A stretch of DNA of 32,243 nucleotides from Gemmatimonadota bacterium (GTDB taxonomy: Bacteria; Gemmatimonadota; Gemmatimonadetes; JACCXV01; JAHWKZ01). This document shows positions 6,465-29,263 of this stretch, one piece after another. Made by a program: the position numbers and the translations under genes. The notes under the pieces are model-generated. The model made no database searches. It was not told the DNA's origin and saw nothing but the letters and a program-made list of their open reading frames with translations. Position 1 is the stretch's first letter; every line of letters starts with the position of its first letter. The stretch covers positions 1 through 32,243 of the forward strand of contig JAICQP010000011.1 of assembly GCA_025937815.1 (NCBI GenBank), written 5' to 3'.

Positions 6465-6492
6465 CCCAGGCCGTTGGTTGCTCGTCCCGAGC

Positions 6493-6593
6493 CGTATCGT
6501 CCGATGATCCGGTCTGGCCTGGCACCTTGGCGGCGATCACCAGGTTGCCGTGCGCGTCGCAGGGCCAGTTCCCTCGGCGCAGCTCTCGATACG
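6493..6593 (-). ncRNA. SAM-I (S-box) riboswitch aptamer
   Basis: On the minus strand, P1 is CGTATC (6588-6593) pairing with GATACG (6493-6498). It encloses, in order, the S-box conserved elements: GAGAG after P1; P2 TGCGC/GCGCA around the core GAGGGAACTGGCCC; CGGCAACC; a P3 hairpin CCTGG/CCAAGG; GGTGCCA; a short P4 (CCG/CGG); then GGAC directly before the closing P1 strand. These match the SAM-I consensus in sequence and order. SAM-I riboswitches sense S-adenosylmethionine and normally control methionine, cysteine or SAM synthesis and transport genes. Here the next gene is the unknown zinc-ribbon paralogue 2. The plus-strand nuclease gene starts on the other side, so its promoter may overlap this region. 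Confidence 0.9.
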
Positions 6594-6685
6594 CGTCCCA
6601 ATCTGCGGCGCTCCCGCGTGCCAGTCAAACGATTCGCGCCGCGCGATCGTGTCGGCGGTCGGGACTAGGGTATCTTGAAGGCCTC

Positions 6686-10062: not shown

Positions 10063-11260
10063 CCTCGATCGCGCCGCGCGCCGTCAGCGCGTAGCGCGCG
10101 CGGAGCCGCTCGCCCGCTCGGGCCGTCACCTGGATGGCGCCCGCCACGCCGTGGCTCTCCATCCGGCTCGCCATCGTGACGGGGTCTCCCCACAGATCGT
10201 AGATGAATTTCCGCTCGCCGATCACGCCGGCGACCACCGGGCCGGTGTCGATCCCGACGCGGAGAGCGACGGGCCTCGCCGCCCCGGAGGCGCGGGCCGC
10301 TGCGACCGCCAGCATCTCGACCGCCGCGTCGGCGATCCGCTCGAGGTGGTCGGCGCGCGGGAGGGGCACGCCGCAGACCGCCATGTACGCGTCCCCGATC
10401 GTCTTGATCTTCTCCAGCCCGTGCCGCTCCGCCACCTGGTCGAAGGCCGTGAAGAGATCGTTAAGGAGGGTCACCAGGTCCTCCGGCGCCATCCCCGCCG
10501 ACAGCTCGGTGAAGCCGACCAGATCCGCGAAGAGGACCGAGGCTTCGGGGAACCGGTCGGCGATCGGCGCCGGGTCGGTCTTGAGCCGCTCCGCGATCGG
10601 TGCCGGCAGGACGTTCAGGAGCAGCCGCTCGCTCCGCTCCCGCTCGCGCTCGAGGCCGAGCCGGGCCAGGAACCCGTCGCGCGCATAGCGCTCCAGGTTC
10701 CAGCACGCGAAACCGCCGATCAGCATGCAGGTGGCGAGAAAGAGGGCCGCGATCGACGGGCTGTCGTACGCGTGGACCCCGCGGCTCAGCACGGCCGCGT
10801 ACGCCGCCAGCATGACGAGCGTCGCGGCCAGCGCGACCGGGAAGCGGATCCGGAACAGCGTGAAGGTGCCGACGACCGCGAGGCCGATGCCGGGATAGAA
10901 CGGCACCTCCATCCGGTTCCCGACGGTGGCCATCATGGCCAGCATGCCGAGTGCGGCCGCCAGCCCCCCGAGCGCCAGGACCTCCGAGTGGATCCTCTCG
11001 AAGACTGGATGCCACGTGAGGGCCAGATTGACGGCCAGGACGGTCACGACCGCGAGCCGCAGCGGCCACACCTCGCCTACCGTGCCGCTCCGCATGTCCA
11101 GCACGAGATAGCCGACATAGAGGGCGATCACGAGGATCGTCGTCGCGCGCGCGGCGCGGATCGAGGAGCGGGCGTACTCGGCGCGGAACTCGGTCTCGAG
11201 CCCGTCGTCGGAGAACCGCAGCGCGAGCGGCTGCGCCGGGCTGTCCGCGCCCGCTCTCAC
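10010..11260 (-). CDS. six-TM class III adenylate/guanylate cyclase, downstream copy
   Basis: This 416-residue membrane cyclase starts with GTG 11260, overlapping the stop of its tandem paralogue as GTGA. About six hydrophobic segments (40-190) are followed by a charged signalling helix (ERERERSERLLLNVLPAPIAERL, 204-226) and one catalytic domain (about 240-412). Metal-binding Asp are D246 (FADLVGFT) and D290 (KTIGDAYM). The purine-specifying pair K286 and D355 indicates ATP, i.e. cAMP synthesis. The transition-state Arg is present (R366), but the usual Asn seven residues after D355 is Thr (T362). It would function as a homodimer like Rv1625c, or as a heterodimer with the adjacent copy. Its 3' end overlaps the convergent ATPase gene. 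Confidence 0.92.
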   Translation of the reverse strand: MRAGADSPAQPLALRFSDDGLETEFRAEYARSSIRAARATTILVIALYVGYLVLDMRSGTVGEVWPLRLAVVTVLAVNLALTWHPVFERIHSEVLALGGLAAALGMLAMMATVGNRMEVPFYPGIGLAVVGTFTLFRIRFPVALAATLVMLAAYAAVLSRGVHAYDSPSIAALFLATCMLIGGFACWNLERYARDGFLARLGLERERERSERLLLNVLPAPIAERLKTDPAPIADRFPEASVLFADLVGFTELSAGMAPEDLVTLLNDLFTAFDQVAERHGLEKIKTIGDAYMAVCGVPLPRADHLERIADAAVEMLAVAAARASGAARPVALRVGIDTGPVVAGVIGERKFIYDLWGDPVTMASRMESHGVAGAIQVTARAGERLRARYALTARGAIEVKGRGRMETYLLGERLA

Positions 11261-12486
11261 GATGCCTGTCGCCGTCCCCGGAGCAGCCAGGTCCGCATCA
11301 TCCCCCGGCCTTTGACTTCGATCTCGCCGCGCGGGGCGAAGTCGTAGCGGTCCGCCAGGCGGTCGCGAACCGCCTCCGTCACCTGGATCTCCCCCGGAAC
11401 ACCGTGCGACTCCATCCGGCTCGCCGTCGTCACCGCGTCGCCCCACAGGTCGTAGATGAACTTGCTCTCGCCGATCACCCCGGCCACGACCGGGCCGGTC
11501 TCGATGCCGATCCGGAGCGGCAGGGTGGACTCTGCGCGCATGTCGAGCGCCAGCTCCGCGATCCGCTCCGCGTGATCGGGCGCGGCCTCCGGAAGGCCCG
11601 CGACCGCCATGTACGCATCGCCGATCGTCTTGATCTTCTCGACCCCGTGGCGGCGCGCGAGCTGGTCGAAGCCGGTGAAGACCGCGTTCAGCATCGTCAC
11701 CAGCTCGTCGGCGGGCATGCGCGTGGACATCGCCGTGAAGCCCGCGATGTCGGCGAACAGGATCGTGGCCTCGGCGTGGTGGTCGGCGATCGGACCCTCG
11801 CTCTCCTTGAGCCGCTCGGCGATCGGCGCGGGCAGGATGTTGAGGAGCAGCCGCTCGCTCCGCTCGCGCTCGCGCGCCGCCTCGCGCTCGTAGAGGAAGC
11901 CGCGCCGCGCGTACCGCTCGATCGTGTACGCGGCCATGAGCCCGATGACGAACGCGGAGCCGAGCGCGATCCAGCCCCCGATCACGCGATCGAGCGTGAG
12001 GTCCTCTGTCAGGGACAGCGTGACCGGCCAGGCGGCGGAGAACACCGCCGAGAGGAGGAGCAGTGCCGGGAAGGCGAGTCGCAACAGGGTGTCCGCGCCC
12101 AGGACTACGAGCACGAGGCCGACCCAGCGCAGTTCGACCCAGGGACCTCCTATGGCGATCAACACGCACATGCCGATGCCCCCGACGAGAGCCGCGGCCC
12201 AAAGGACGCGCCCCCGGACGCGCGGCCAGAAGGGCGCGAAGGTCAGGCCGAACGAGACGAGGAACACGGCCGCGACGGCCGCCCTCACCGACCACGCGCT
12301 GACGGCCAGGTCCGGGTCCGCCCACCGGTCGACGAGAATGAACGCGAGGAACAGGACGCTCCCGATCAGGAGCGTCACCCGCACCTGGCGCGTAGCGGAG
12401 GCCCGGTACTGCTCGCGGAACCGCGCCTCCAGCGCGGCATCGTCGAAGCGGAGCGTGATGGGATGGATGCGGACCGGGTGGGTCAT
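11257..12486 (-). CDS. six-TM class III adenylate/guanylate cyclase, upstream copy
   Basis: This is a 409-residue tandem paralogue of the downstream cyclase with the same plan: an N-terminal cytoplasmic stretch, about six TM segments (38-190), a signalling helix ending LLLNILPAPIAERL, then a catalytic domain (about 240-405). Catalytic residues are D246, K286, D290, D346 and R357. The Asn expected at D346+7 is Thr (T353), the same change as in the downstream copy. The KFIYDLWGD block is identical in the two copies, so they arose by duplication. The gene begins at ATG 12486 with no strong ribosome-binding site. The 126-bp gap upstream carries the terminator of the lipoprotein gene, so a separate promoter is likely needed. 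Confidence 0.92.
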   Translation of the reverse strand: MTHPVRIHPITLRFDDAALEARFREQYRASATRQVRVTLLIGSVLFLAFILVDRWADPDLAVSAWSVRAAVAAVFLVSFGLTFAPFWPRVRGRVLWAAALVGGIGMCVLIAIGGPWVELRWVGLVLVVLGADTLLRLAFPALLLLSAVFSAAWPVTLSLTEDLTLDRVIGGWIALGSAFVIGLMAAYTIERYARRGFLYEREAARERERSERLLLNILPAPIAERLKESEGPIADHHAEATILFADIAGFTAMSTRMPADELVTMLNAVFTGFDQLARRHGVEKIKTIGDAYMAVAGLPEAAPDHAERIAELALDMRAESTLPLRIGIETGPVVAGVIGESKFIYDLWGDAVTTASRMESHGVPGEIQVTEAVRDRLADRYDFAPRGEIEVKGRGMMRTWLLRGRRQAS

Positions 12487-17422: not shown

Positions 17423-17548
17423 CACTGTCCGAGGCCTGACAACGCGCTACCTGCCATCGACCTACCGTGCGGGCGTCCGTTTGGACGGCGTGGAGGCCCC
17501 GGTCGTCTTTTCGAAGTGAACGAATCGGGGGACGGAGAAGGAGGGTCG

Positions 17549-18919
17549 ATGGACGGACGCATGGATCGACGCCGCTTCCTGGCCGGCGCCGGGGCCGTGA
17601 CGGCCGGGGCGCTGGCGTGCGGGGCGGCGGGACTGGACTTCGCGAACCGGGCCCGGCAGCTGGTCGCCGACGACGGGGGCGGGCGTCCGTTCGATCCCGG
17701 GGACTGGGGCTCGGTGCGGGAGAGCTTCAGCCTCTCCCCCGACGTCGTCCACATGGGCGCCCTGTACATCGCCAGCAATCCCGCCCCTGTCCGGGACGCC
17801 ATCGCCAACCACCGCATGGGCCTCGACCGCGATCCCGTCCCCTATCTCCAGCGCAACGAGCGCGCGCTCACCTACGCGGCCCTCGAGGCCGCCGGGCGCT
17901 ACATGGACGCCGACTCGGACGATCTGGCGCTGACCGACAGCACGACGATGGGCCTGGGGCTCCTCTACACCGGACTCCGCCTCGAGCCCGGACAGGAGAT
18001 CCTGACCACCGAGCACGACTACTACGTCACCCATGAGGCCACGCGCCTGGCGGCCGAGCGGACCGGGGCGACGGTGCGGAGGATCCGGCTCCACGATCCC
18101 GAGGACCTTACGCGCCAGGGTATCGACGTCGACGGCGACCGGATCGCGGAGCGGATCGCGCGCGAGATCCGTCCGGCGACGCGGGTCGTCGCCCTGACCT
18201 GGGTCCATTCCAGCACCGGCCTCAAGCTCCCGCTGGAACAGATCGCGGCAGCCGTGCGCGAGCGGACGGGCGATCGGCCTCAGCAGGACAGGCCGCTCCT
18301 GTGCGTGGACGGCGTGCACGGGTTCGGGGTCGAGGACATCGGCATGGGCGACACGGGCTTCGACTTCTTCGTCGCCGGCTGCCACAAGTGGCTCTTCGGT
18401 CCACGCGGCACGGGCGTCGTCTGGGGCCGGGGAGAAGAGGCATGGTCGCTCGTTCGCCCCACGATCCCGAGCTTCCTCGACTCCTCGCTGTGGACCGCGT
18501 GGGCGCGCGGCGCTCCGCCGGGCGGGGAGACCACGGCGCACCGCGCGACGCCGGGCGGCTTCAAGGCATTCGAGCATCGCTGGGCGCTCGAGCAGGCGTT
18601 CGACTTCCTGCGCGAGATCGGCAAGGACCGGGTCGCCGGGCGCACCCACGAGCTGGCGCGGCGACTGAAGGAGGGGCTGATCGAGGTCCCCCGCGTTCAG
18701 CTCATCACGCCGCTCCCGGAGACCGTCTCTTCGGGGATCGTCTGCTTCGATGTCGAGGGGATGTCGGCGGCCACCGCCGTCGGCCTGCTGGGGGCCCGGG
18801 GGATCGTCGCCACAGTCACCCCGTACGCGACGACCTACGCGCGGCTGGCGCCCAGCATCCTCAACTCGCCCGCCGAAGTCGACGCCGCCATCGCCGCCGT
18901 TCGCGAAATCGCCGCCTGA
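17549..18919 (+). CDS. Tat-exported class V aminotransferase-fold PLP enzyme
   Basis: This 456-residue protein starts at ATG 17549, with AAGGAGG about 5 nt upstream; an in-frame start at 17516 is less likely. The N-terminus DRRRFLAGAGAVTAGALACG is a twin-arginine signal, possibly lipidated at LACG. The rest is a class V aminotransferase (NifS/isopenicillin-N-epimerase-like): the PLP-binding Asp in CVDGVHGFG, and the Schiff-base Lys in AGCHKWLFGPRGTG (K280). This family includes cysteine desulfurases, kynureninase-like enzymes and epimerases. Tat export would fit folding with PLP in the cytoplasm before secretion. The substrate is unknown. The gap to the preceding cyclase gene is 126 bp and contains a short CGTCC/GGACG stem-loop (17474-17487) without a T-run. 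Confidence 0.88.
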   Translation: MDGRMDRRRFLAGAGAVTAGALACGAAGLDFANRARQLVADDGGGRPFDPGDWGSVRESFSLSPDVVHMGALYIASNPAPVRDAIANHRMGLDRDPVPYLQRNERALTYAALEAAGRYMDADSDDLALTDSTTMGLGLLYTGLRLEPGQEILTTEHDYYVTHEATRLAAERTGATVRRIRLHDPEDLTRQGIDVDGDRIAERIAREIRPATRVVALTWVHSSTGLKLPLEQIAAAVRERTGDRPQQDRPLLCVDGVHGFGVEDIGMGDTGFDFFVAGCHKWLFGPRGTGVVWGRGEEAWSLVRPTIPSFLDSSLWTAWARGAPPGGETTAHRATPGGFKAFEHRWALEQAFDFLREIGKDRVAGRTHELARRLKEGLIEVPRVQLITPLPETVSSGIVCFDVEGMSAATAVGLLGARGIVATVTPYATTYARLAPSILNSPAEVDAAIAAVREIAA

Positions 18920-18975
18920 TACACGACGGGCGCCGGGGGAGACTGAGCGGCTAGAGAAAGAGGAGCAGGACCCAA

Positions 18976-19040
18976 GGCGTGGCGAATCCCACGCCGCAGG
19001 AAAGGCGACGCAGCGCAACGCCGCAGACGAGGCGTTTTCA
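18976..19040 (+). repeat. 65-bp dispersed repeat, copy 1
   Basis: This segment is about 80% identical by eye to 25856-25920, in the same orientation. It starts with a hairpin (GGCGTGG/CCACGCC, 18976-18995) and ends with GCAGACGAGGCGTTTTCA. It lies 9 bp from the stop codon of the minus-strand methyltransferase gene, in the 130-bp gap between that gene and the convergent aminotransferase gene. No protein is encoded. Its nature is unknown; it could be a REP/MITE-like element or a shared 3'-end RNA structure. Confidence 0.7.
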
Positions 19041-19049
19041 CCGTCCTGC

Positions 19050-19673
19050 CTAAGCGGCGGAGGCGATGCCGAGGTATTGCCATGCTGTAGGCTTCCACCC
19101 CGACACATAACCCGTATCCAGCTCCTCGATCCGGAACCCCGCGGCTTTGAGGATCGCCAGCGGATCGCGGTCCAGGTGGCATCCGCCGGCGACCCGGCGC
19201 CATACCGGAGTGATCCGCTCCTGCCAGCGCCGGACGGACGGGTCCGGAGAGCGTCCGTGCTCGGCGAAAAGGAGCCGTCCGTCGGGGGCCAGCGTCCGCC
19301 TCGCCTCCAGCAGCGCGCCCACGGGATCGGGCACGGTGCACAGCGTGTAGGTCACGACCAGCGTGTCCACGGAAGCGTCGGGGAGCGCCAGCCCGGGCTC
19401 GTCGGCGGGCCGGACGAAGAAGCGGACCGGGAAGGCCGTCTCGCCGGCGCGGCTCGCGGCCATCCGGTAGAGTTCGGGGGAAGGATCGACGCCCCACACG
19501 AGATCGACCTTGTCGGGGTCGTAGAGCGGCAGGTTCCGCCCCGAGCCGATCCCCAGCTCGAGCACCTTGCCGCGGGCTCGCGGCACGATCCGCTCGCGCT
19601 GCTCGGTGATGGCTCCAAGGCCGCAGCTCCAGTCGATGAGCCGCGGGAGCACCAGCTGGTCGTATAGCCTCAT
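19050..19673 (-). CDS. class I SAM-dependent methyltransferase (UbiE/Methyltransf_11 type)
   Basis: This is a 207-residue enzyme. ATG 19673 overlaps the stop of the upstream hydratase gene (ATGA) and has GGAGG 5 nt upstream. Motif I is VLELGIGSGRNLPLY (37-51), the acidic end of the second strand is GVDPSPEL (61-68), and the post-motif region DTLVVTYTLCTVPDP is typical of UbiE-like enzymes. The protein ends in WQYLGIASAA. The methyl acceptor (lipid, small molecule or quinone) cannot be told. It is the last gene of the AtuA/hydratase cluster. Its stop codon is followed 9 bp later by repeat copy 1. Confidence 0.9.
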   Translation of the reverse strand: MRLYDQLVLPRLIDWSCGLGAITEQRERIVPRARGKVLELGIGSGRNLPLYDPDKVDLVWGVDPSPELYRMAASRAGETAFPVRFFVRPADEPGLALPDASVDTLVVTYTLCTVPDPVGALLEARRTLAPDGRLLFAEHGRSPDPSVRRWQERITPVWRRVAGGCHLDRDPLAILKAAGFRIEELDTGYVSGWKPTAWQYLGIASAA

Positions 19674-20461
19674 TGCGCCTCCGATGCCGCCGCGCCCCGT
19701 CGTGCCAGGAAGGCCCGGACGCCTGCGCGGCAGTCTTCTGTGCTGCGCGCTTCCGCGTTCACCTGCGCGCCCCGCTCTATGCCCTCCGCGAACGTCAGCT
19801 CGTCCAGATCGTATAGAAGTCGCTTGGTGAGGGCCATGGAAGTCCGCGAGCGGGTCGCCAGGTCGACGGTGAACGCGAGTGAGTCGTCGGCGAACGTGTG
19901 GCGCGAGAACACCGCGTGCACGAGCCCTTGTTCCAGCGCCTCGCGCGCTCCGATGCGCTGGCCGGATGCCACGAGCGCGAACGCCCGCTTCTCGCCCACC
20001 GCCCGGACCAGCATCGTCATGACCATGGCGGGAACGAAGCCGATATGGATCTCCGGGTACCCGAAGTTCGCGTCGTCGGCGGCCACCACGACGTCGCACG
20101 CCGTCGCGAGTCCGGCGCCGCCGGCCAGGGCGTTCCCCTGCACAGCCGCGACGATCGCCTTGGGGAGCCTGCGCATGTGGAGGAACAGCCGGCCCATCAC
20201 GAGCGCGTCCTCTTCCAGCTCGCCGCGGGACATGTCGAGCGTGGCCTCGATGTGCGCCAGGTCCGCGCCGGCGCAGAAGTCGCGCCCCTCGGCGGCGAGC
20301 AGGATCGCCGCGACGCGCTCGTCCGCCTCCGCTGCGGCCAGCGCCTCCTCGAGATCGGCGATCGTATCCGGATCGAGCGCGTTTCGTTTCTCGGGGCGGG
20401 CCAGCGTGACGAGCGCTACCGCGTCCTCCGCCCGCACCTCGTACCGCACGCGACCGCTCAT
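19670..20461 (-). CDS. enoyl-CoA hydratase/isomerase family protein
   Basis: At 263 residues it is the usual crotonase length. The oxyanion-hole segments DFCAGADLAHI and GNALAGGAGLATACDVVVA are present, followed by the acidic active-site region FGYPEIHIGFVPAM. It starts at ATG 20461, overlapping the AtuA C-domain stop by four bases. In acyclic-terpene (Atu) and leucine (Liu) degradation clusters, the hydratase next to AtuA is a methylglutaconyl- or isohexenylglutaconyl-CoA hydratase. The neighbourhood suggests the same kind of branched acyl-CoA substrate here, but no carboxylase or ligase gene is in the window to confirm it. Confidence 0.92.
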   Translation of the reverse strand: MSGRVRYEVRAEDAVALVTLARPEKRNALDPDTIADLEEALAAAEADERVAAILLAAEGRDFCAGADLAHIEATLDMSRGELEEDALVMGRLFLHMRRLPKAIVAAVQGNALAGGAGLATACDVVVAADDANFGYPEIHIGFVPAMVMTMLVRAVGEKRAFALVASGQRIGAREALEQGLVHAVFSRHTFADDSLAFTVDLATRSRTSMALTKRLLYDLDELTFAEGIERGAQVNAEARSTEDCRAGVRAFLARRGAAASEAQ

Positions 20462-20826
20462 CGGCCCGCCCTGCCCGTGGCCGTATCCAGCGATGCGAGA
20501 ACGTCGGCCGGGACGTCGATCTCCGCGCGCAGCAGCGCGGTCGAGTACACCTTGCCCTGCGCGTCGGTCATGAGGCTCACGGTGCCGCCACCGCCGAGCG
20601 CGCCGTGGAGGAGGAAGTTGAGCGCCTCGAGGTTGTGGAGCTCGAAGCGTTCGACAGGGCCGTCGATCATGCCCGCGAAGTGCTCCGCCACACGCTCGGC
20701 GGTGAGCTCGCGCTCGAGGAGCGCGTACGCTTGCGCGCTGTACGCTATCACTCCCACGTTCGCCGTGTCGCCCTTGTCGCCCGAGCGTGCATGGGCGAGA
20801 TGCCGCAGCTGGACCCGCGTGGTCAT
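20458..20826 (-). CDS. AtuA C-terminal-domain protein (stand-alone)
   Basis: This 122-residue protein begins at ATG 20826 with RHLAHARSGDKGDTANVGVIAYS, the signature of the C-terminal ferredoxin-like domain found fused to the DUF1446 domain in acyclic-terpene-utilisation protein AtuA. Here it is a separate gene; its N-terminal partner is encoded at 22379-23755, with a glycosyltransferase gene between. The stop overlaps the start of the hydratase gene. Its biochemical role is undefined in the family. It probably forms a complex with the N-terminal domain protein. Confidence 0.85.
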   Translation of the reverse strand: MTTRVQLRHLAHARSGDKGDTANVGVIAYSAQAYALLERELTAERVAEHFAGMIDGPVERFELHNLEALNFLLHGALGGGGTVSLMTDAQGKVYSTALLRAEIDVPADVLASLDTATGRAGR

Positions 20827-20872
20827 CGGACTCAACGGTAACGATCGCGGCCGGCGCCGGCGAATCCGTCGG

Positions 20873-22369
20873 TCATGGCGGGGGCGCGTGGATCTTCGTC
20901 GTCCCGGGGGCGAATTCGATCGCGACCGCGCCGCGCTCCCGAATGGCCCGGACCAGGGCCTGCCTGTCGACCCGCGCGCCGTAGGCGGCCTCCAGCCGAG
21001 GCGTGAGATCCTCGACCGGGGGCTGGTAACGCCCGCGGGTTGACCCCAACCCGGGAACCAGCGGCGCCTGGTTCGGCCCCGAGACGAGGAGCCAGGTCCG
21101 CGGCGGTAGCGAGCCATCGGGACGCCTGGGAAACCGGGGGCCGACCGACTCTACGGGCAGCCCGTACCATCTTCCGATCGCCCTGAGATACGGCCGCGCG
21201 AAGACGACGACATCGCCGGGACGGGTTTCCGGGAGCAGGGTACGGGCGAGCGTTCCGGCCGCGAACATCCCGGGCAGCGGCCCCGTGGGGGCCGCGGCCC
21301 GGATCCCTGTCACGGCGAGGAGCGCCGCTCCCGCGACGACCCCGGCGCGCAATCCCCTGCCGGGCAGGAGAGCGAGCGCCGCCAGCCCGATCGAGATCGC
21401 CAGCCGCCAGGGGATCAGATACCGGTCCACCCCGAAGGGCCGCCCCGGCGCTCCCGCCATGACAGCGGCGAGCGTCAGGCCGGCCACCGCGGCGACCGCC
21501 AGGCCGAGCGGGGCGGAGCGGCGCGCGAGGAGAGCGATCCCGGCGAGGCCCGCGAGCGTGAGGAGCGGAGCGGCGAACCCGATCGGCCAATGGTCCGCCG
21601 CTCGCTCGATGACGAATCGCGCCGCTTGCCACCCATCGAGCATTCCGGACGTGGCGACCGGCCGGAGGGTGCCCATCGGGAATGGTTCGCCTAGGCCCAC
21701 GGACCGGCCCAGTCGGACGACCTGCCCGAGCGAACCGGCGAGCGGCAGGAGCGCGGCCAGGCCAGCGAACCGGGCCCCCCATCGCCACGCCACGGTTCCC
21801 AGGACCGCTGCGGCGAGGGCGAAGCCGAGATAGTGAGTCCAGGTCGCCGCCAGGAGGATCGCACCCAGTCCGAGCCAGGGGCCGGCGCTTCGCTCGCCCC
21901 TCGAGCCGATCTCGTCCATCCGCCACAGCGCCGCGAGAACCAGGAGGGCCAGCAGCCCGTACATCCGGGCCAGGCTCGACAGGACGACCAGCACCGGATC
22001 GAACGCGACCAGGGCCGCGAGGAGAAGCCCCACCCCGACCCGATTCCCGAGGAGCCACGCCGCTGGAACGCAGAGGATCCCCGCGATCACGGACGGCAAT
22101 CGAAGGCTCCAGACGCTCTCCCCGAACGCCTCGAGGGAGAGGCGAACGAGGAGAAACGAAAGCGGCGGGTGATCCGGGTGATGGTGCCAGAGGAGGAAGT
22201 CCCAGAGCGTCGCGCCGGACGTGCGCCATGTCAGTCCTTCGTCCCCGATGAGAGGCCGCGCGTCGACCAGCCAGACGCGAATGGCCGCCCCGGCGAGCGT
22301 CGTCGCCCCGAGCGCGAGGACGGCGCGCGTGCGACGGGTGGGCGCTGGCGCGTCGTCGCCGTGGGCCAC
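20873..22369 (-). CDS. GT39/ArnT-like multi-TM glycosyltransferase
   Basis: This is a 498-residue integral membrane protein. GTG 22369 has GAGG at about 5 nt and lies 9 bp after the AtuA N-domain stop. After a first TM helix comes LIGDEGLTW (D43/E44), the acidic pair at the start of the first periplasmic loop in polyprenyl-phosphate-dependent GT-C enzymes (PMT/ArnT/GT39/GT83). Then WHHHPDHPPLSFLLVRLSL and about 10 further hydrophobic segments follow, with a C-terminal soluble domain containing a strand GDVVVFARPYL. Such enzymes move a sugar from a lipid-phosphate donor to protein or lipid on the periplasmic side. Donor and acceptor are unknown. Its position inside a catabolic cluster is unusual. 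Confidence 0.82.
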   Translation of the reverse strand: MAHGDDAPAPTRRTRAVLALGATTLAGAAIRVWLVDARPLIGDEGLTWRTSGATLWDFLLWHHHPDHPPLSFLLVRLSLEAFGESVWSLRLPSVIAGILCVPAAWLLGNRVGVGLLLAALVAFDPVLVVLSSLARMYGLLALLVLAALWRMDEIGSRGERSAGPWLGLGAILLAATWTHYLGFALAAAVLGTVAWRWGARFAGLAALLPLAGSLGQVVRLGRSVGLGEPFPMGTLRPVATSGMLDGWQAARFVIERAADHWPIGFAAPLLTLAGLAGIALLARRSAPLGLAVAAVAGLTLAAVMAGAPGRPFGVDRYLIPWRLAISIGLAALALLPGRGLRAGVVAGAALLAVTGIRAAAPTGPLPGMFAAGTLARTLLPETRPGDVVVFARPYLRAIGRWYGLPVESVGPRFPRRPDGSLPPRTWLLVSGPNQAPLVPGLGSTRGRYQPPVEDLTPRLEAAYGARVDRQALVRAIRERGAVAIEFAPGTTKIHAPPP

Positions 22370-22378
22370 GCGCGATCC

Positions 22379-23755
22379 TCAGGCCTCCACGACTTCGACC
22401 TCGATGCCGGGCTCGATCGCGGACCGGTCGATGAGCGCCGGCCAGTACGCGACGATGTCCTGCACGCGCGGCCGCCCGCCGGCGAAGCCGGTCACGCTGG
22501 GCGGGCCCGACAGGATGAGCGGCGCGATCTCGCGCGTGAAGCGCTCCACCGGCGCCTTCTCCGCGCTCTTGACCGCCACCCGGAGCTCGACCTCGGGCAG
22601 GTCCTCGGGGGGCGGACCCGCGAGCGGTCCGTGGGTGGCGTTCCAGCCCACGTACTCGGTGCGGATCTCGTCGAACGACAGGCCCAGGCGGTCGAGCCGC
22701 GCGCGCAGGACCGCGTCGGCCTTCTGCGCCTTGGCTACCGCGTCCGGCCAGGCGTAGACCAGCGTGCCGACCGCCTTGAAGCCCGCGCGGTAGCTGATCG
22801 AGACCTTGAGCATGTCGGTGCGCGGCCGCCCCTTCACGCCGTGGACGCGCACCCGATCCGGCCCGTCCGCCTCGAGCCGGATCGTGGTGAAGTCCGCGAT
22901 CCCGTCGGGGGTGATGTATTCCCTCGGGTCTCCCATCTCGTACAGGACCTGCTCCTTCACGATCGCCGGCGTGATGCGGCCACCGGTTCCGTCGTGCTTG
23001 GTGAGGACGAACGGGCCCTCGGGGGTGGCTTCCACGATCGGGTAGCCCACGTCGGCGAGATCGGGGATCGTCTCCCAGTCGATCATGCAGTTTCCGCCCG
23101 AGGCCTGCGCGCCGCACTCGTTGATGTGCCCCGCAACGATCCCGTGGGCGATCCGGTCCCAGTCGTCCCAGCTCCAGCCGAAGGCGTGGATCATGGGCGC
23201 GTAGGTGAGCGCGGTGTCGGTCGAGCGCCCGGTGACGATGACGTCCGCGCCGCGCGCCAGCGCCTCCACGATCGGCGCCGCGCCGATGTACGCGTTGGCG
23301 CTCTCAACCAGGTCGAGGACTTCCGAGAGCGGCCGGCCGTCGTCCATGTTCGCCAGCTCGTGGCCGGCGGCGATCAGGTCCGGCAGCCGCTCCAGGATGT
23401 CGTCCCCCGTCACGGTGCCGATTCGCGCCCGGTCCGCGACCCCCGCCGCGCGCGCGGCCTCGACCAGCCCTTCGCGGCAGCCGGCGATGTTGACTCCCCC
23501 GGCGTTCGAGATGACCCGGATCCCCTTCTCGACGATGTCGGGGAAGATCTCCTCGAGGAGCGGCACGAAGTCGCGCGCGTATCCCTGCGAGGGGTCGCGG
23601 GCCTTCTGCTTCTGGAGGATCGACATCGTCACCTCGGCCAGGTAGTCCAGCATGAGGAAGTCGATGGGCCCCCGCCGGACCTGTTCGATCGGCGCGTCGA
23701 GGCGGTCCCCCCAGAACCCCTGGCCGCAGGCGATCCGGAGCGCGCGCCTGCTCAC
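22379..23755 (-). CDS. AtuA N-terminal-domain (DUF1446) protein
   Basis: This 458-residue protein starts at GTG 23755, overlapping the upstream cyclase stop (GTGA). Conserved blocks are [16 protein letters not shown] near the N-terminus, then [45 protein letters not shown] and [10 protein letters not shown], all characteristic of DUF1446/AtuA, a protein needed for citronellol/geraniol degradation in Pseudomonas. The AtuA C-terminal domain is absent here and encoded separately at 20458-20826. The catalytic activity of AtuA has not been defined, so only a role in acyl-CoA or terpene-type catabolism is suggested. Confidence 0.9.
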
Positions 23756-25740
23756 GGGCCGGGCAGCCACGTCGCCCGATCGGGCTGGGGCACGCGGTCC
23801 AGGCCGATCCGCTCCACGAGCGCCTGGAAGCGGGGGTCGTCCCGCAGCGGGTCCAGGTGGGGCGAGCGGGGAAGCCGGATCAGGTACCAGTCGTTCTCGG
23901 CGACCGCGCGGTCGAGCATCTCCAGGGCGCCTTCCCGGTCCCCCCTCCAGATGCGGCTCCACCCGACGAACGAGAGCGGCCACCCGGAGTCCTCCCCTAT
24001 CGCCCTCAACGCCTCGAGGTACGGCGCCACGTCGCCTTCCGTCAGGGCGCGTCGCGCCGCGTCCGCCCGCGCGCGGTCGAGGTAGCCGAGCCATTCGAAC
24101 TCCCCGATCGCCTCGGCGTACCGCTTCGTGATCACGCTGATCTCCATGAGCTTGTAATGAGGGGCGCGGAAGGATGGATCCAGGTCGAGCGCCTCCCGGT
24201 AGAGGCGTGTCGCCTCGTCGAACTCGCGCGCCATGAGGTGGACGTTCCCGGCCTCGGTGATCACGACGAGCGACAGCGGATCGAGCTCGCGCGCATGGGC
24301 GATCTGCTCGAACGCTTCGTCGAACCGGCCCATGGCGGCCAGGTAGTGTGCGTACCATTGCCGGGCGTTGGCGTCGCCGGGGTTGCATTCCAGGGCGCAG
24401 CGGAAGCTCGCCTCGGCCCCCGTCCAATCCCGCTGGTAGATGCGGATCATCCCCTGCGCGGCGCACGCTTCGGCGCAGCCCGGGTCGAGCTCGAGCGCCC
24501 GCGCGATCTCCGCCACGGCACGTTTTGTGTCGACCTCGCCGGCCTCGCGTCCCCAATGGAGCTGGAGCACGCACGCGCTGGCCATACCCGCGTGCGCCGG
24601 CGCGTACCCGGGGTCCGCCGCGATCGATCGCTCGAAGTGGTCGATCGCGCGTCCCAGGTCCACCGTCGTCCGGCGGTTGAGGAACCAAAGGCCCCGCAGA
24701 TACTCCTGGTACCCCGGCACGCTCGTCGGCGCGGCCGCGAGCCGGGCCTTCTCACCCGGCGACAGCTTGACCTTGAGCGCGTCGACGATCCGCTCGGCGA
24801 CGTCGGTCTGGATCGCGAAGATGTCCTCCAGGTCGCGGTCGTACTTCTCCGCCCACAGGTGCCCGTCGGTCGCCGCGTCGACGAGCTGCGCCGTGATGCG
24901 GACCCGGGAGCCGGCATGGCGCACGCTGCCCTCGAGGATCGAAGCCACGCCGAGCTCGCGGCCGATCTCGCGCACGCCGGCGCTCGACCCCTTGTAGCGC
25001 ATGACGGAGGTGCGGCTGATCACCTTGAGACCCTCTACCCGGGCGAGCGACGTGAGGATCTCCTCCGTCACGCCGTCGGAGAAATACTCGTCGCTCGCGT
25101 CACGGGAGAGATTCGCGAACGGAAGCACGGCGATCGACCTGTCGACCACCCGATCCGCGGGTCCCGTGACGGAGGGGGCCTCCTCCCTGTCCGCCGCTCG
25201 AACGCGAAAGACCTGCAGCGGCTGGCCGTACCCCTTGAGCGAACGCGCCCCGAGCGGGTCGAACCGGAAGCCCCGTCCGTGGCGCAGCGCGCGCGCCGCA
25301 TCTTCGCTGACCACGATGTCGCCGGGGTCGGCTACGGCCTGGATCCGCGCGGCGAGGTTGACCCCGTCCCCGTAGACGTCGCCATCCGGCGCCCCCGCAA
25401 CCTCTCCGACGTGGAGTCCGATCCTCAATTCGGTTGCTGCCGGCGAGCCGGGCGGCGGGAACGCCCCGCGAAGCGCGAACGCGGCCTCGAGAGCGGCTCG
25501 GGCGCTGGCAAACTCGGCCAGGGCTCCGTCGCCCAGGAACTTGACCACGCGCCCGCGCCCCTCCACCGCCGCGCGCATCGCTCGCTGGAACTCCGCCACG
25601 GCGGCGAGCGCTGCGTCCTCGTCGTTGTCGGCGAGCCGGGTGAAGCCGACGATGTCCGCGAACCAGACGGCAGCGAGCCGGCGGTCGAGACCGCCACCGG
25701 TCTCGCCGGTGGCGTTCGGGGGGCGATGTGGAGGCATCAC
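23752..25740 (-). CDS. class III cyclase / TolB-like / TPR regulator
   Basis: This is a 662-residue protein. The GTG at 25740 is followed by ATG 25737, so either may be the start; no clear ribosome-binding site is seen. Domains: a class III cyclase (about 20-185) with metal Asp D29 and D71, K67, D121, N128 and R132 all present; a TolB/FlgO-like domain beginning [14 protein letters not shown] (201-214); then a TPR array to about 600. No TM segment is visible. The cyclase-TolB-TPR plan is common in Acidobacteriota, Gemmatimonadota and rhizobia as putative signalling proteins. It heads the AtuA/glycosyltransferase/hydratase gene string, with a GTGA overlap to the next gene. Intact catalytic residues suggest it is an active cAMP-forming enzyme. 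Confidence 0.9.
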
Positions 25741-25855
25741 CGCGAAGCTAACGACCCCACCCGACCCCGTCCCCCCGCCGTTGGAGGGGGCCCCGCGAGA
25801 AAGAGAGGGCCAGTCGTCGACGGACAGCCACGGGCGCGCGACGAGGCTCTTCCGA

Positions 25856-25920
25856 GGCGTGGTGGATTCCCACGCCGCAGGAAGAACGAGGAGCCCAACG
25901 CAGCAGACGAGTCGTTTTCA
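25856..25920 (+). repeat. 65-bp dispersed repeat, copy 2
   Basis: This is the second copy of the element at 18976-19040. It has the same opening hairpin (GGCGTGG/CCACGCC, 25856-25876) and the same closing GCAGACGAGTCGTTTTCA. It lies 5 bp from the stop codon of the minus-strand molybdoprotein gene, again at the 3' end of an unrelated gene. The rest of the 185-bp gap (25741-25925) shows no gene. Confidence 0.7.
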
Positions 25921-25925
25921 GCGAC

Positions 25926-26624
25926 CTACAAAGCTGCGTACCAGTCGTAGCCCTTGTCTTCCCAGTACCCCCCCGTCGACTCCGGCACGAACCGCACGCC
26001 CGTCAGGTACTTCACGCTCTTGTACCCGTACTTGAGGTTCGAGTACAGCCGCGCGGGCGCGCCGTGACCGGGGGCCAGCCACGAGCCGTTGAGGCCGATC
26101 GCGATCAGAGTCTGCGGGTGGAGCGCGCTCTCCCTGTCCCAGCTCGACCAGTAGCCGGCATCGAAGGAGCGGAAGTCGACGAATCCGGCCGCGGTGTCGG
26201 CCCCCGCCACGCGCGCGATCTCGGCCAGCCGCACGCCCGTCCACGCGGCCACCGCCGTCCACCCCTCGATGCAGTAGTGGCGGAGGCGAAGTGTCACGCG
26301 CGGCATCGCGGCGAGGTCGGAGAGGGAGAGCGAGAGCGGCCGCCGCACCATGCCCGAGACCTCGAGTCGCCAGACCGCGGGATCGACCCGCGGCATCATC
26401 GGGCTGATGAAGTACTGCGGGAACGAGGGACTCTCGCTCCCGGCCGGCTCGATCCGCACGTGCGGCCCGCCGGGAGGGGCGAGCGCCCGCTGGAGCCAGC
26501 GGTTGGGACGGTCCCAGGCACGTAGGAGCGGCCACAGCGGCCCGCCGTCCCAGCCGCAGCCGGCGGCCGTGAATCCGGCCGCCGTCAGCGCCGCCCGCTT
26601 CAGGAAATCACGCCTGTCTGACAT
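25926..26624 (-). CDS. Tat-exported molybdopterin-binding oxidoreductase (sulfite-oxidase fold)
   Basis: This 232-residue protein starts at ATG 26624 (GGAAGG upstream). The N-terminus RRDFLKRAALTAAGFTAAGC combines a twin-arginine motif with a lipobox-like AAGC (C23). The sulfite-oxidase/YedY-type domain shows the molybdenum-ligating Cys in RHYCIEGW (C118), followed by WTGVRLAEI, then SFDAGYWSSWD and the conserved ending KYLTGVRFV...GYWEDKGYDWY. Family members reduce or oxidise small S- or N-oxides in the periplasm and often work with a membrane cytochrome b. A cytochrome b fragment of the right type is encoded on the same strand at the right edge, but 5 kb away. Substrate unknown. Confidence 0.9.
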   Translation of the reverse strand: MSDRRDFLKRAALTAAGFTAAGCGWDGGPLWPLLRAWDRPNRWLQRALAPPGGPHVRIEPAGSESPSFPQYFISPMMPRVDPAVWRLEVSGMVRRPLSLSLSDLAAMPRVTLRLRHYCIEGWTAVAAWTGVRLAEIARVAGADTAAGFVDFRSFDAGYWSSWDRESALHPQTLIAIGLNGSWLAPGHGAPARLYSNLKYGYKSVKYLTGVRFVPESTGGYWEDKGYDWYAAL

Positions 26625-26662
26625 GTGCCTTCCAATGCGGGATCTCATTCTATTCTGCGAGT

Positions 26663-27217
26663 CTAGGGAGTGGAGGCGTCCTCCGCGTCGGCCATCGGGC
26701 CGTCGCTGTTCCAGATGTCCAGCACGGTCACCCACTGCCCGTCGCGATTCTCGTGGATGGACGTCCACTTGCCAGTGTCGTCGAACGGCTGGCCGTCCAC
26801 GGTGTTCGTGCTCGTGAACGTACCGTAGCCGTACGCGAGGTCGCCCGAGGCGGATACCTCGACGCCGTCGGTCACGATGTCGATCGCGGTGAACGGCGCC
26901 GCCGTCATCATCTCGACGAACCCTGACTCGATCTCCGCGCGACCGGACATCATCGGCGCACCGGGTGCGAGGACCACGGCGTCCTCGGCATAGATGGCTG
27001 CCAGGGCGGCTCCGTCGTTCGTCAGGGCGGTGGTCTCCCACGCATCCCCGAAGTCGTCGAGCGCCTGCCGAACGGCGGCGGGGTCGACCGCGGAGGCCTC
27101 TTCGGTGGATCCCGCTTCCGTTGTGGATCCTGTTTCGGTGGCCGGCTCCTGCTGACAGCCGGCGATCAGTGCGACGGCCACGGCGGCCGCGAACAGCGGC
27201 ATCGCGTGCTTCGGCAT
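26663..27217 (-). CDS. SnoaL/DUF4440-like lipoprotein
   Basis: This is a 184-residue precursor from ATG 27217 (GGAG 8 nt upstream). The signal peptide with lipobox LIAGC is followed by a Thr/Glu-rich linker (TETGSTTEAGSTEEAS). A SnoaL-like cone fold follows, seen in the helix RQALDDFGDAWETTALTNDG, AAIYAEDAVVLAPGAPMMSG and the ending WVTVLDIWNSD. Such domains bind small hydrophobic ligands or act as isomerase-like enzymes; no catalytic residue set is diagnostic here. Surface or periplasmic location is inferred. It is 38 bp upstream of the molybdoprotein gene on the same strand, so the two may be co-transcribed, and divergent to the formate dehydrogenase operon. Confidence 0.82.
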   Translation of the reverse strand: MPKHAMPLFAAAVAVALIAGCQQEPATETGSTTEAGSTEEASAVDPAAVRQALDDFGDAWETTALTNDGAALAAIYAEDAVVLAPGAPMMSGRAEIESGFVEMMTAAPFTAIDIVTDGVEVSASGDLAYGYGTFTSTNTVDGQPFDDTGKWTSIHENRDGQWVTVLDIWNSDGPMADAEDASTP

Positions 27218-27264
27218 GCTCGAGTCTCCAGGTACGGGTGAGGATTCGGGTAAGGGGACGAGAT

Positions 27265-27294
27265 ATTGTATCCGAACTCCGGCTGGCGTAGCAA
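27265..27294 (-). promoter_or_regulatory. candidate sigma70 promoter for the SnoaL-like lipoprotein
   Basis: On the minus strand TTGCTA (27289-27294) and TACAAT (27265-27270) are separated by 18 bp. The -10 ends 48 bp before the ATG at 27217. The match is moderate but sits in a locally AT-richer divergent gap (27218-27355), as expected for a promoter. Confidence 0.45.
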
Positions 27295-27355
27295 ATACCT
27301 TCGTGTTGCTTCCCCGGCGAATGCCGCGGTAGACTGGCGAGGAAAAGGAGGCGCA

Positions 27356-29263
27356 ATGAAGAACCGTCACGCGCGGCTCACGCGACCCCTCGTCCGCGAA
27401 GACGGCCGGCTCCGGCCGGCGTCCTGGGACGAGGCGCTCGAACGGGCCGCCGACGGGTTCCGGCGGGTGACGGCGGAGCATGGGCCGAGCTCCTTCGGGC
27501 TATTCAGCTGCTCGAAGACGACGAACGAGCTCAATTACCTGACCCAGAAGTTCGCTCGCTCCGTCATCGGCTCGAACAACGTCGACAGCTGCAACCGCAC
27601 CTGACACGCTCCCAGCGTCGTCGGTCTGGCGACGGTATTCGGAGCGGGGGGTGGAACCAGCTCGTACCAGGAGATCGAGGAGACGGACGTCATCCTCCTG
27701 TGGGGGTCGAACGCCCGCGAGACGCACCCGATCTTCTTCCATCACCTCCTGAAGGGCGTCCGGAACGGGGCCGAGCTGTTCGTCATCGATCCCCGCCGGA
27801 CGAGCTCCGCGAAGTGGGCCCACCAATGGCTGGCGATCGACGTCGGATCGGACATCGCGCTGGCCAACGCGGTCGCCCGGGAGATCATCCACGCGGGCCT
27901 CGAGAACCGGACATTCATCGAGCGCGCGACGACCGGCTTCGACGAGTACCGCGAGTCGGTGGAGCCGTGGACGCTCGAGCGCGGGGCGGAAGTCACGGGC
28001 GTCGCGCCGGAGGAGATCCGACGGCTCGCCCACGCCTATGCCCGGGCCGGCAGGGCCCAGATCTGCTGGACCCTGGGTATCACCGAGCACCACAACGCCG
28101 CGGACAACGTCTTCGCGCTCATCAACCTGGGACTCCTGACCGGGCATGTCGGCCGCTACGGGTCGGGCCTCTGCCCGCTGCGGGGGCAGAACAACGTCCA
28201 GGGCGGCGGCGACATGGGCGCGATCCCGAACAAGCTGCCCGGCTTCCAGGACGTCGAAGCCGCAGTGGCGAGGGAGAAGTTCGAACGGGCGTGGGGTGTG
28301 AAGATCCCAGCCCGCCGGGGGTGGCACATCAGCCAGATGTTCGAGGCGATGGAGGAGGGGAAGCTGAGGACGCTTTTCGTCGTGGGGGAGAATCCGGCGC
28401 AGTCGGAGGCCGACGCCACCAAGACCCGCCGGATTCTCGAGGGTCTCGAGCACATGGTCGTCCAGGACATCTTCGCCACCGCGACGGCACAGATGGCCGA
28501 CGTCGTCCTTCCGGCGGCGGCCGGCTGGGCCGAGACCGAAGGCACGGTGACGAGCAGCGAGCGGCGGGTCCAGCGCGTGCGGAAGGCGCTCGATCCGCCG
28601 GGCGAAGCCAGAGACGACCTGCTCATCCTCGCCGATCTCGCCCGGCGGCTCGGCCACGAGTGGGGCGCGCCCACCGCGGAAGCGGTGTGGGACGAGCTGC
28701 GGTCGCTCTCGCCGATGCACGCCGGGATGAGCTACTCCCGGCTCGACGAGATGGGCGGGATCCAGTGGCCGTGCCCAGACGAGACGCACCCCGGCACGCT
28801 GTTCCTGCACGGGCGCCTGTGGGAGGAGCCGCGGGAAGGGCCCCCGGCCCCGTTCGTCCCGGTCGAGTACGCGCCGCCGGTCGACGAGCTGACGGACGAG
28901 TATCCGATCCGGCTGACGACCGGGCGCTGTCTGGACTCGTTCAACACCGGCGTCCAGACCGCGCGATACACGGCCCCTATCCGCCGCGGCGGCTGCGTCG
29001 AGCTCTCGCCCGAGGACGCGGAGACCCTCGAGGTCGCCGACGGCCAGCGGGTGCGAGTGACGTCGAGGCGCGGCTCGGTCGAGGGGCCGGTGCGGATCGA
29101 TCCGGGCCTCCGGCCCGGGCTCGCGTTCATGACCCTCCACTTCCCGGACGAGGTCGACACGAACCTGCTGACGATCGACGCCTGGGATCCGAAATCGGGA
29201 ACGGCCGAGTTCAAGGCCAGCGCGGTCCGGATCGAGAAGCTCGAGCCGGCCCTCGCCGGCTGA
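27356..29263 (+). CDS. fdhA: selenocysteine formate dehydrogenase catalytic subunit, lacking N-terminal Fe-S domain
   Basis: This 635-codon gene is read through an in-frame TGA (27602-27604), which I assign to selenocysteine at residue 83. ATG 27356 has AAGGAGG 5 nt upstream. It is the molybdenum/tungsten bis-MGD catalytic part of formate dehydrogenase. The context NVDSCNRT-U-HAPSV aligns with E. coli FdhF around Sec140-His141. LRGQNNVQGGGDMG places Arg276 exactly 193 residues after Sec, the same distance as Sec140 to Arg333 in FdhF. Downstream MGD-binding blocks and the C-terminal beta-barrel domain (LTDEYPIRLTTGR...) are complete. The N-terminal [4Fe-4S] domain with its CxxCxxxC motif is missing; the protein starts at RLTRPLVREDG. 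That domain is encoded at the end of the operon. It oxidises formate to CO2, presumably passing electrons to NAD+ via the downstream subunits. Confidence 0.95.
27605..27645 (+). promoter_or_regulatory. bacterial SECIS element
   Basis: Directly after the TGA, a hairpin forms with lower stem GCTCC (27608-27612)/GGAGC (27641-27645) and upper stem CGTCG (27616-27620)/CGACG (27630-27634). A bulged U and a C-G pair close the apical loop GGUCU (27623-27627). Eighteen nucleotides lie between the UGA and GGUCU, the same as in E. coli fdhF. SelB recognises this loop to insert selenocysteine. Confidence 0.92.

Follow-up and report, generated by a model that had tools for sequence, protein, structure and literature searches.

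Why should the same short sequence stand directly behind two unrelated genes? The question is raised by a 32,243-nt stretch of DNA from a Gemmatimonadota bacterium (contig JAICQP010000011.1 of assembly GCA_025937815.1; the whole stretch is hereafter the window), in which two segments (Table 1) agree at 55 of 66 aligned columns, in keeping with the roughly 80% identity, in the same orientation, reported by a first-pass annotation made from the sequence alone. The 18-mer GCAGACGAGNCGTTTTCA occurs twice in the window with 0 mismatches, against a chance expectation of 0.11 with up to 3 mismatches allowed. Our preferred reading, to which we assign a probability of about one half, is that the two segments are decayed copies of an old palindromic repeat in the manner of ERIC and YPAL, one that turns over at the DNA level and has been kept as a hairpin at gene 3' ends. 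The repeat itself belongs with ERIC and YPAL in kind; it is a palindromic family of wide phylogenetic spread whose stop-codon register is unusual.

A long palindrome behind stop codons

The first-pass annotation had described a 65-bp repeat ending in a terminal GGCGTGG/CCACGCC hairpin and lying 5-9 bp downstream of the stops of two minus-strand genes. An 87-base query gave 41 matches in the home genome of the window (a metagenome-assembled genome, or MAG, of 2.89 Mb in 264 contigs, 94% complete), and alignment of 30 of these first matches exposed an imperfect palindrome of ~120 nt as the unit. The 65-bp repeat is thus real, but it comprises only the apical hairpin and one arm; the supposed terminal hairpin forms the palindrome's apex; and the minus-strand stops do lie upstream, but the gap vanishes, since the element measured to its hairpin base begins at the stop codon.

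A covariance model was trained on the 23 full-length copies among the 30 first loci, the two window copies (L001 and L017) being left out as truncated or partial along with L004, L005, L015, L025 and L029. In the home genome it returned 85 matches, reduced by strand merging to 73 rows (weakest E 0.07). Because two rows at contig C59 cover overlapping sequence in opposite directions, the genome-wide count that the annotation had called for stands at 72 places. L025 (C58:616-657) and L029 (C53:2446-2484), partial matches to the 87-base query, are absent from these rows. Seven copies lie within ~120 nt of contig ends (C172, C26, C154, C101, C4, C108 and C150). The assembly may therefore break at the repeat, and the genome may contain more copies than were counted. 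At L004 (G000:C17) and L010 (G000:C108), two different versions of the element stand behind one gene end, one of them truncated beside what by eye is an apparent tRNA gene: a duplicate locus or a strain mixture.

The position of these copies relative to genes is nearly fixed. Genes were called with a home-made caller, compared with Pfam on ten open reading frames (ORFs) of the window, and the stop-distance statistics cover the 63 of 73 rows that score >60 bits. Here the upstream neighbour presents a sense stop in 53 cases and a start in 6 (4 not callable), and 50 of the 53 sense stops fall within -11 to +12 nt of model position 1, bearing out the 3'-end preference first proposed from two copies; at register -11, the TGA of the element's own TGAAAA serves as the stop codon. 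Of the 50 sense copies flanked by called genes on both sides, 47 lie within 12 nt of the stop, where uniform placement in the same spacers would put 15.5 (maximum 29 in 20,000 simulations). Spacers that hold the element are co-directional in 48 cases, convergent in 15 and divergent in none (n = 63), versus 93, 9 and 18 for spacers without it (n = 120), and no copy in the home genome lies inside any called gene. A similar register is seen in relatives. In Gemmatimonadetes bacterium OFB_bin.31 (JAICNR01; G001), a congener with 45 matches, the 39 examined comprise 34 stops, 30 of them in register, and 5 starts; in a genome of another family (G028), 14 of 32 matches were examined and gave 10 stops, 7 in register, with 3 starts and 1 not callable. 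Twenty further loci, picked by hand from the class search list, have a sense stop upstream in 19 cases, 15 of these within -11 to +10.

Read on the sense strand, that of the upstream gene, the 5' half of the element runs GG-N-CG-N-TGAAAACGG-NN-CATCTGC..CGTTGCGCTCCTCG..TTCCTGCGGCGTGGG(loop), and the 3' half after the loop CCACGCCTCGGAA..CTCGTCGCGCGCCTTGCATCTG-NN-CCGTTTTGA-N-CG-N-CC. Predicted folds of the 30 first copies with their flanks reach about -50 to -86 kcal/mol. The arms vary from copy to copy while remaining complementary. In the main alignment (A3), 92.9% of 3493 cells are paired, both sides have changed in 29 of 36 pairs, and the covariation score is 0.390, versus 0.126 shuffled and no more than 0.085 when the structure is slid; compensatory changes in the stem, which the annotation had suggested looking for, are therefore present. 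These figures lean towards the model because the alignment was fitted to it; other class members, taken as an independent set (A4), give 0.408 versus 0.115. One antisense duplicate row was counted for covariation in A3 and dropped for the G·G and wobble counts, and two such rows were counted in A4 and dropped for the wobble counts. Columns 10 and 241 form a conserved G·G mismatch, present in 89 of 97 rows, and the internal loop is flanked mostly by ATCT on both sides. As a separate observation, one arm in eight congener copies (L225, L230, L232 and all of L237-L241) carries a nested mini-palindrome of the GCACCC..GGGTGC type, mostly near the CATCTGC/GCATCTG loop.

Site turnover and distribution

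Comparison with the congener reveals both retention and turnover. Twenty-one home sites are occupied among the congener copies examined, with flanks 72-89% identical; these include C95, at which only one flank matched, and window copy 2, whose counterpart lies at C55:7770-7907. The pair analysis takes in 20 of the 21, window copy 2 not being in A3, whose sources omitted its locus. L211 (G001:C199), on a contig of the congener bin that is 99% identical to the home genome, was excluded from the orthologous-pair counts; its 5' arm has been replaced, and its arms pair less well. Orthologous elements are 78% identical, versus 59% when shuffled, and the 35 nt 3' of shared elements are at random level (57.7% vs 56.0%). 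Of 314 outer-stem cells in the 20 pairs, 237 are unchanged, 43 have changed on both sides and still pair, and 7 have changed on both sides and do not; one-sided changes broke pairing in 22 cells and kept it in 5. By hand calculation, ~13 double changes of any kind would be expected under independence. At some orthologous sites the whole inner hairpin has been replaced by another type, which points to exchange between copies, and the inner region is almost as similar between non-orthologous copies (0.743) as between orthologous ones (0.769).

At four informative sites the two genomes differ, one of them having no element or a shrunken one. The syntenic congener sites of C21:25580 and of window copy 1 are without the element, that of C141:19177 holds a short remnant, and the congener copy at C246:16002 corresponds in the home genome to a 42-nt mini-hairpin with complementary arms of its own. 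Four more home mini-hairpins have lost most of the core and kept the outer stem. A degenerate home copy (C139:784) is not recognisable in the congener, and C240:11990 was left out of the comparison, as the congener contig ends there.

Counting the home genome, the element is carried by 9 of 41 genomes at E 0.01 and, within the class, by 21 of 295 at E 1e-5, copy numbers there being lower bounds because 12 candidates were scored per genome. In two genomes of one genus (G234 and G282), it is found behind ribonucleotide reductase. The core DNA pattern occurs in at least 115 stretches of named genomes; among the 80 matches listed, 61 bear titles of the Deltaproteobacteria/Desulfobacterota kind (Smithella, Syntrophaceae and Geobacteraceae among them), and the remaining titles are Gemmatimonadetes, Chitinivibrionales, Bacteroidales or unplaced. 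The home-genome model matches all 73 core-pattern loci scored at full length at E 1e-5, a set preselected by the core pattern from the at least 115 and not including L082 (earlier E 8.6e-5). Outer arms at core-pattern loci look shared within lineages. At Desulfobacterota loci such as L063 and L069, the 3' arm is followed by a sequence of GACTTTTTACGA form that repeats the 5' outer arm in inverted orientation and so lengthens the outer terminal repeat. Phage or plasmid cargo was rejected, Smithella copy L109 having no match in phage and plasmid records and the core pattern none in viral contigs.

The window copies and their surroundings

The two window copies have decayed to different degrees. 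In copy 1, the 5' arm and apical hairpin are intact and most of the 3' arm is deleted, the outermost 7 bp (GCAGGAC/GTCCTGC) remaining complementary; its predicted fold has -42.5 kcal/mol.

Table 1. Positions in the window of the repeat copies, the adjoining stop codons and the neighbouring genes
Feature	Position	Strand	Remarks
First-pass segment, copy 1	18976..19040	-	Apical hairpin and 5' arm
First-pass segment, copy 2	25856..25920	-	Apical hairpin and 5' arm
Copy 1, shortened element	18965..19049	-	Covariance model match 18936-19048, 33.8 bits, E 0.001
Stop codon TAG, methyltransferase gene	19050..19052	-	Next base is the start of the copy 1 hairpin base
Methyltransferase ORF, in-sense upstream of copy 1	19050..20099	-	Pfam Methyltransf_11/23; start uncertain (gene caller: 19673)
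Aminotransferase class V ORF, convergent, other side of copy 1	17516..18919	+	Pfam Aminotran_5 1e-28; start uncertain
Copy 2, full-length match with decayed outer 3' arm	25810..25928	-	Covariance model, 73.9 bits
Stop codon TAG, Oxidored_molyb gene	25926..25928	-	Overlaps first stem position of the copy 2 model
Molybdopterin-binding oxidoreductase ORF, in-sense upstream of copy 2	25926..27356	-	Pfam Oxidored_molyb 3.6e-31; start uncertain
Nucleotide cyclase/TPR protein gene, co-directional downstream of copy 2	23752..25737	-	Pfam Guanylate_cyc and TPR on ORF 23752-25740

Elsewhere in the window, an S-adenosylmethionine (SAM) riboswitch lies on the minus strand at 6491-6595 (RF00162, 47.2 bits, above gathering), and a pair of long direct repeats, of 142 nt (82%) and 300 nt (75%), occurs ~1.2 kb apart in 10123-11890, inside the neighbouring genes 10010-11260 and 11257-12486, which are probably tandem paralogues.

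Known repeats and competing explanations

Integron attC sites are imperfect palindromes behind stop codons, in fixed orientation, with arms that are free in sequence yet paired and with conserved unpaired bases; their two ends carry the boxes RYYYAAC and GTTRRRY. The present element resembles attC in all of these features except the boxes, which are found at the ends of 0 of 60 home and 0 of 38 congener copies, and, unlike attC, it is dispersed at syntenic chromosomal genes. The integron integrase model TIGR02249 gave 4 partial matches in the home genome, none over the cut-off, in a search whose control fell below the cut-off in 14 of 14 genomes. With the core boxes missing from 98 of 98 copies and no integrase over the cut-off, an integron attC identity was rejected.

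The first-pass annotation had leaned towards an element like a repetitive extragenic palindrome (REP) or a miniature inverted-repeat transposable element (MITE). A 3'-end bias of stem-loops has been described before, in sources that jointly cover stem-loops, REP stops, YPAL/ERIC and a Geobacter family (PMC2229807, PMC1590033, PMC3733652, PMC2700814). The GTAG and CGTC families of REP are palindromic, 3'-end biased and placed between co-directional or convergent ORFs, and REP ends can supply a stop codon (PMC3733652). Our element is likewise palindromic and 3'-end biased and can provide the stop; unlike REP, it is a single palindrome of ~120 nt, not 20-40 bp, and the Y1 transposase (PF01797) had 0 matches in the 94%-complete home genome, its control being found in 5 of 14 genomes. 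What survives of the REP/MITE suggestion is therefore a dispersed palindromic repeat with many copies and a 3'-end preference, while a system of REP and its associated transposase (RAYT) was rejected on length and on the missing Y1 enzyme. A MITE of the IS630 type was rejected as well, since DDE_3 (PF13358) gave 0 matches in the home genome (control found in 3 of 14 genomes; other transposase families lay outside the search).

The likeness in kind is to YPAL/RU-2 and ERIC/RU-1 of enterobacteria, dispersed repeats of 127-168 bp with long stem-loops, which are reported to influence upstream genes or to be co-expressed with them; both occupied and empty sites are known for YPAL, and target-site duplications are TA for ERIC and 3-26 bp for YPAL (PMC2229807). 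A palindrome of ~100-170 bp in many dispersed intergenic copies, with occupied and empty sites between relatives, is the mark of this type, and we find both, at 72 places and ~120 nt and in the congener comparison. The likeness is one of kind, drawn from length, folding and dispersal. On the other hand, the hosts differ, the arms are individual to each copy, and the stop register, the sense orientation and the want of a detected target-site duplication set the element apart; because of the last point, we file it with the ERIC/YPAL kind and not as a member of either family.

A family of 24 copies in Geobacter metallireducens, a multicopy, intergenic 'short RNA element' (Gmet_R1005 = GSU0160.1) with one copy between dapAB and dapL, has the published centre GRCGTAGCGCTGCTACGCC (PMC2700814). 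In the Geobacteraceae copy L062, the apex matches RCGTAGCGNTGCTACGCC and agrees with that centre at 17 of 19 positions by eye. On this comparison, made by the published centre only, the Geobacter family may be the same as ours and a likely earlier, partial sighting of it; the available part of its description makes no mention of a stop register or of covariation (PMC2700814). No name for the repeat family was found in the searched literature or in Rfam. A known Rfam RNA family was rejected, there being no match at the element in the window (at gathering), at 5 home loci (E 1) or at 7 other loci (E 0.1); a weak MIR1888 match in L062 lies away from the element.

On our preferred reading, the ~120-nt palindrome is an old and probably once mobile element. 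As DNA it turns over, by presence and absence, deletion of the centre and exchange between copies, and in Gemmatimonadota it is kept mainly immediately after stop codons. It would be expected to be transcribed there as part of the upstream message and to form a single long hairpin, which might serve at the transcript 3' end to block exonucleases, to provide a processing site or to act as a non-canonical terminator that separates the message from its neighbour.

Several observations weigh against this reading. No target-site duplication was found, identical flanking 3- to 6-mers being no commoner than in re-paired flanks (59 home and 38 congener copies; other lengths are outside the test), and no mobilising enzyme turned up among the three families searched (Y1, DDE_3 and integron integrase). 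Conversion of whole hairpins could explain part of the coordinated arm changes. Divergent spacers hold 1 of 39 congener copies and 1 of 14 in G028, and at 114 core-pattern copies the upstream neighbour is a stop in 48 cases and a start in 58 (7 not callable, 1 inside a called gene), with 15 of the 114 in divergent spacers; gene calls are those of the home-made caller, and the genomes are fragmented MAGs. TTTT within 20 nt 3' of the element is at background (2 of 59 home copies and 2 of 38 congener copies, backgrounds 1.5% and 1.1%), and a usual intrinsic terminator was rejected for want of a U-tract. Finally, selection on the sense RNA should leave one-sided pairing departures as G·U rather than A·C, as expected of structural RNAs, whereas in the outer stem G·U versus A·C is 23 vs 46, 9 vs 24 and 34 vs 54 in three sets.

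Part of the A·C excess comes from pairs adjoining the internal loop: leaving out the three loop-proximal pairs brings the first set to 20 G·U and 23 A·C (hand count). The seven pairs below the apical stem show 24 G·U versus 5 A·C in that set, with a single pair supplying every one of the 24 (U·G in 22 cases, G·U in 2), and in the rest of the other two sets there is no difference. The outer stem thus gives no sign of sense-RNA selection, and that G·U is not favoured there weighs against a pure RNA reading and for folding, correction or conversion at the DNA level. The suggestion of a shared terminator or RNA-stability element stays conjectural, with T-runs at background and the wobble test as described.

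A serious, if clearly less probable, competitor to the 3'-end hairpin is a purely DNA-level, non-autonomous mobile element without host function. It would be recognised as a folded single strand, in a logic like that of attC, IS200 or REP, by some recombinase with gene 3' ends as its target. The patchy spread over phyla, the occupied and empty syntenic sites, the kept G·G mismatch with ATCT mostly on both sides of the internal loop, and the lack of a sense-RNA wobble preference all fit such an element, as do core-pattern loci in both orientations and the 22 of 48 core-pattern sense stops that end exactly 18 or 20 nt before ATCTGC, which is the element edge (hand count). The differing arms, however, are unlike a burst from one master copy; many sites are common to two species despite a randomised adjacent spacer; Y1_Tnp and DDE_3 (home genome) and a target-site duplication (3- to 6-mers) were not found; and the orientation and tight stop register in Gemmatimonadota have no obvious DNA-level cause. 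More speculatively, these stop-anchored palindromes, which cross phyla with their own arms round a shared core, might be kept folding as single-stranded DNA, as recombination sites of some hairpin-recognising enzyme or as a new kind of gene-end mark, stable at housekeeping genes. An excess of A·C over G·U in the sense strand corresponds to an excess of G·T over A·C in its complement.

We consider it unlikely that the element is a purely functional, structured 3'-untranslated-region (3'-UTR) RNA, never mobile and inherited vertically, with covariation from RNA selection. The stop register, the sense orientation, the empty divergent spacers of the home genome, the covariation and the copies that follow ribonucleotide reductase in G234 and in G282 would all be expected of it; G·U not being favoured over A·C, turnover of sites within a genus, presence in only 21 of 295 class genomes and the even orientation in distant carriers would not. 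Most doubtful of all is an inert repeat whose arms stay complementary without selection, through template-switch (quasi-palindrome) correction and gene conversion, and whose position reflects tolerance, for although the swapped inner hairpin modules, the near-equal inner similarities and the wobble counts agree with it, correction should erase the G·G mismatch that 89 of 97 rows keep, and tolerance leaves register and orientation unexplained.

Bacterial palindromic repeats are often taken for debris. This family, in the Gemmatimonadota examined, holds an almost fixed stop register and one prevailing orientation, its arms stay complementary though they change locus by locus, and it persists at orthologous genes amid randomised spacer. 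The occupied and empty orthologous pairs make it directly testable whether such repeats have any role at mRNA 3' ends.

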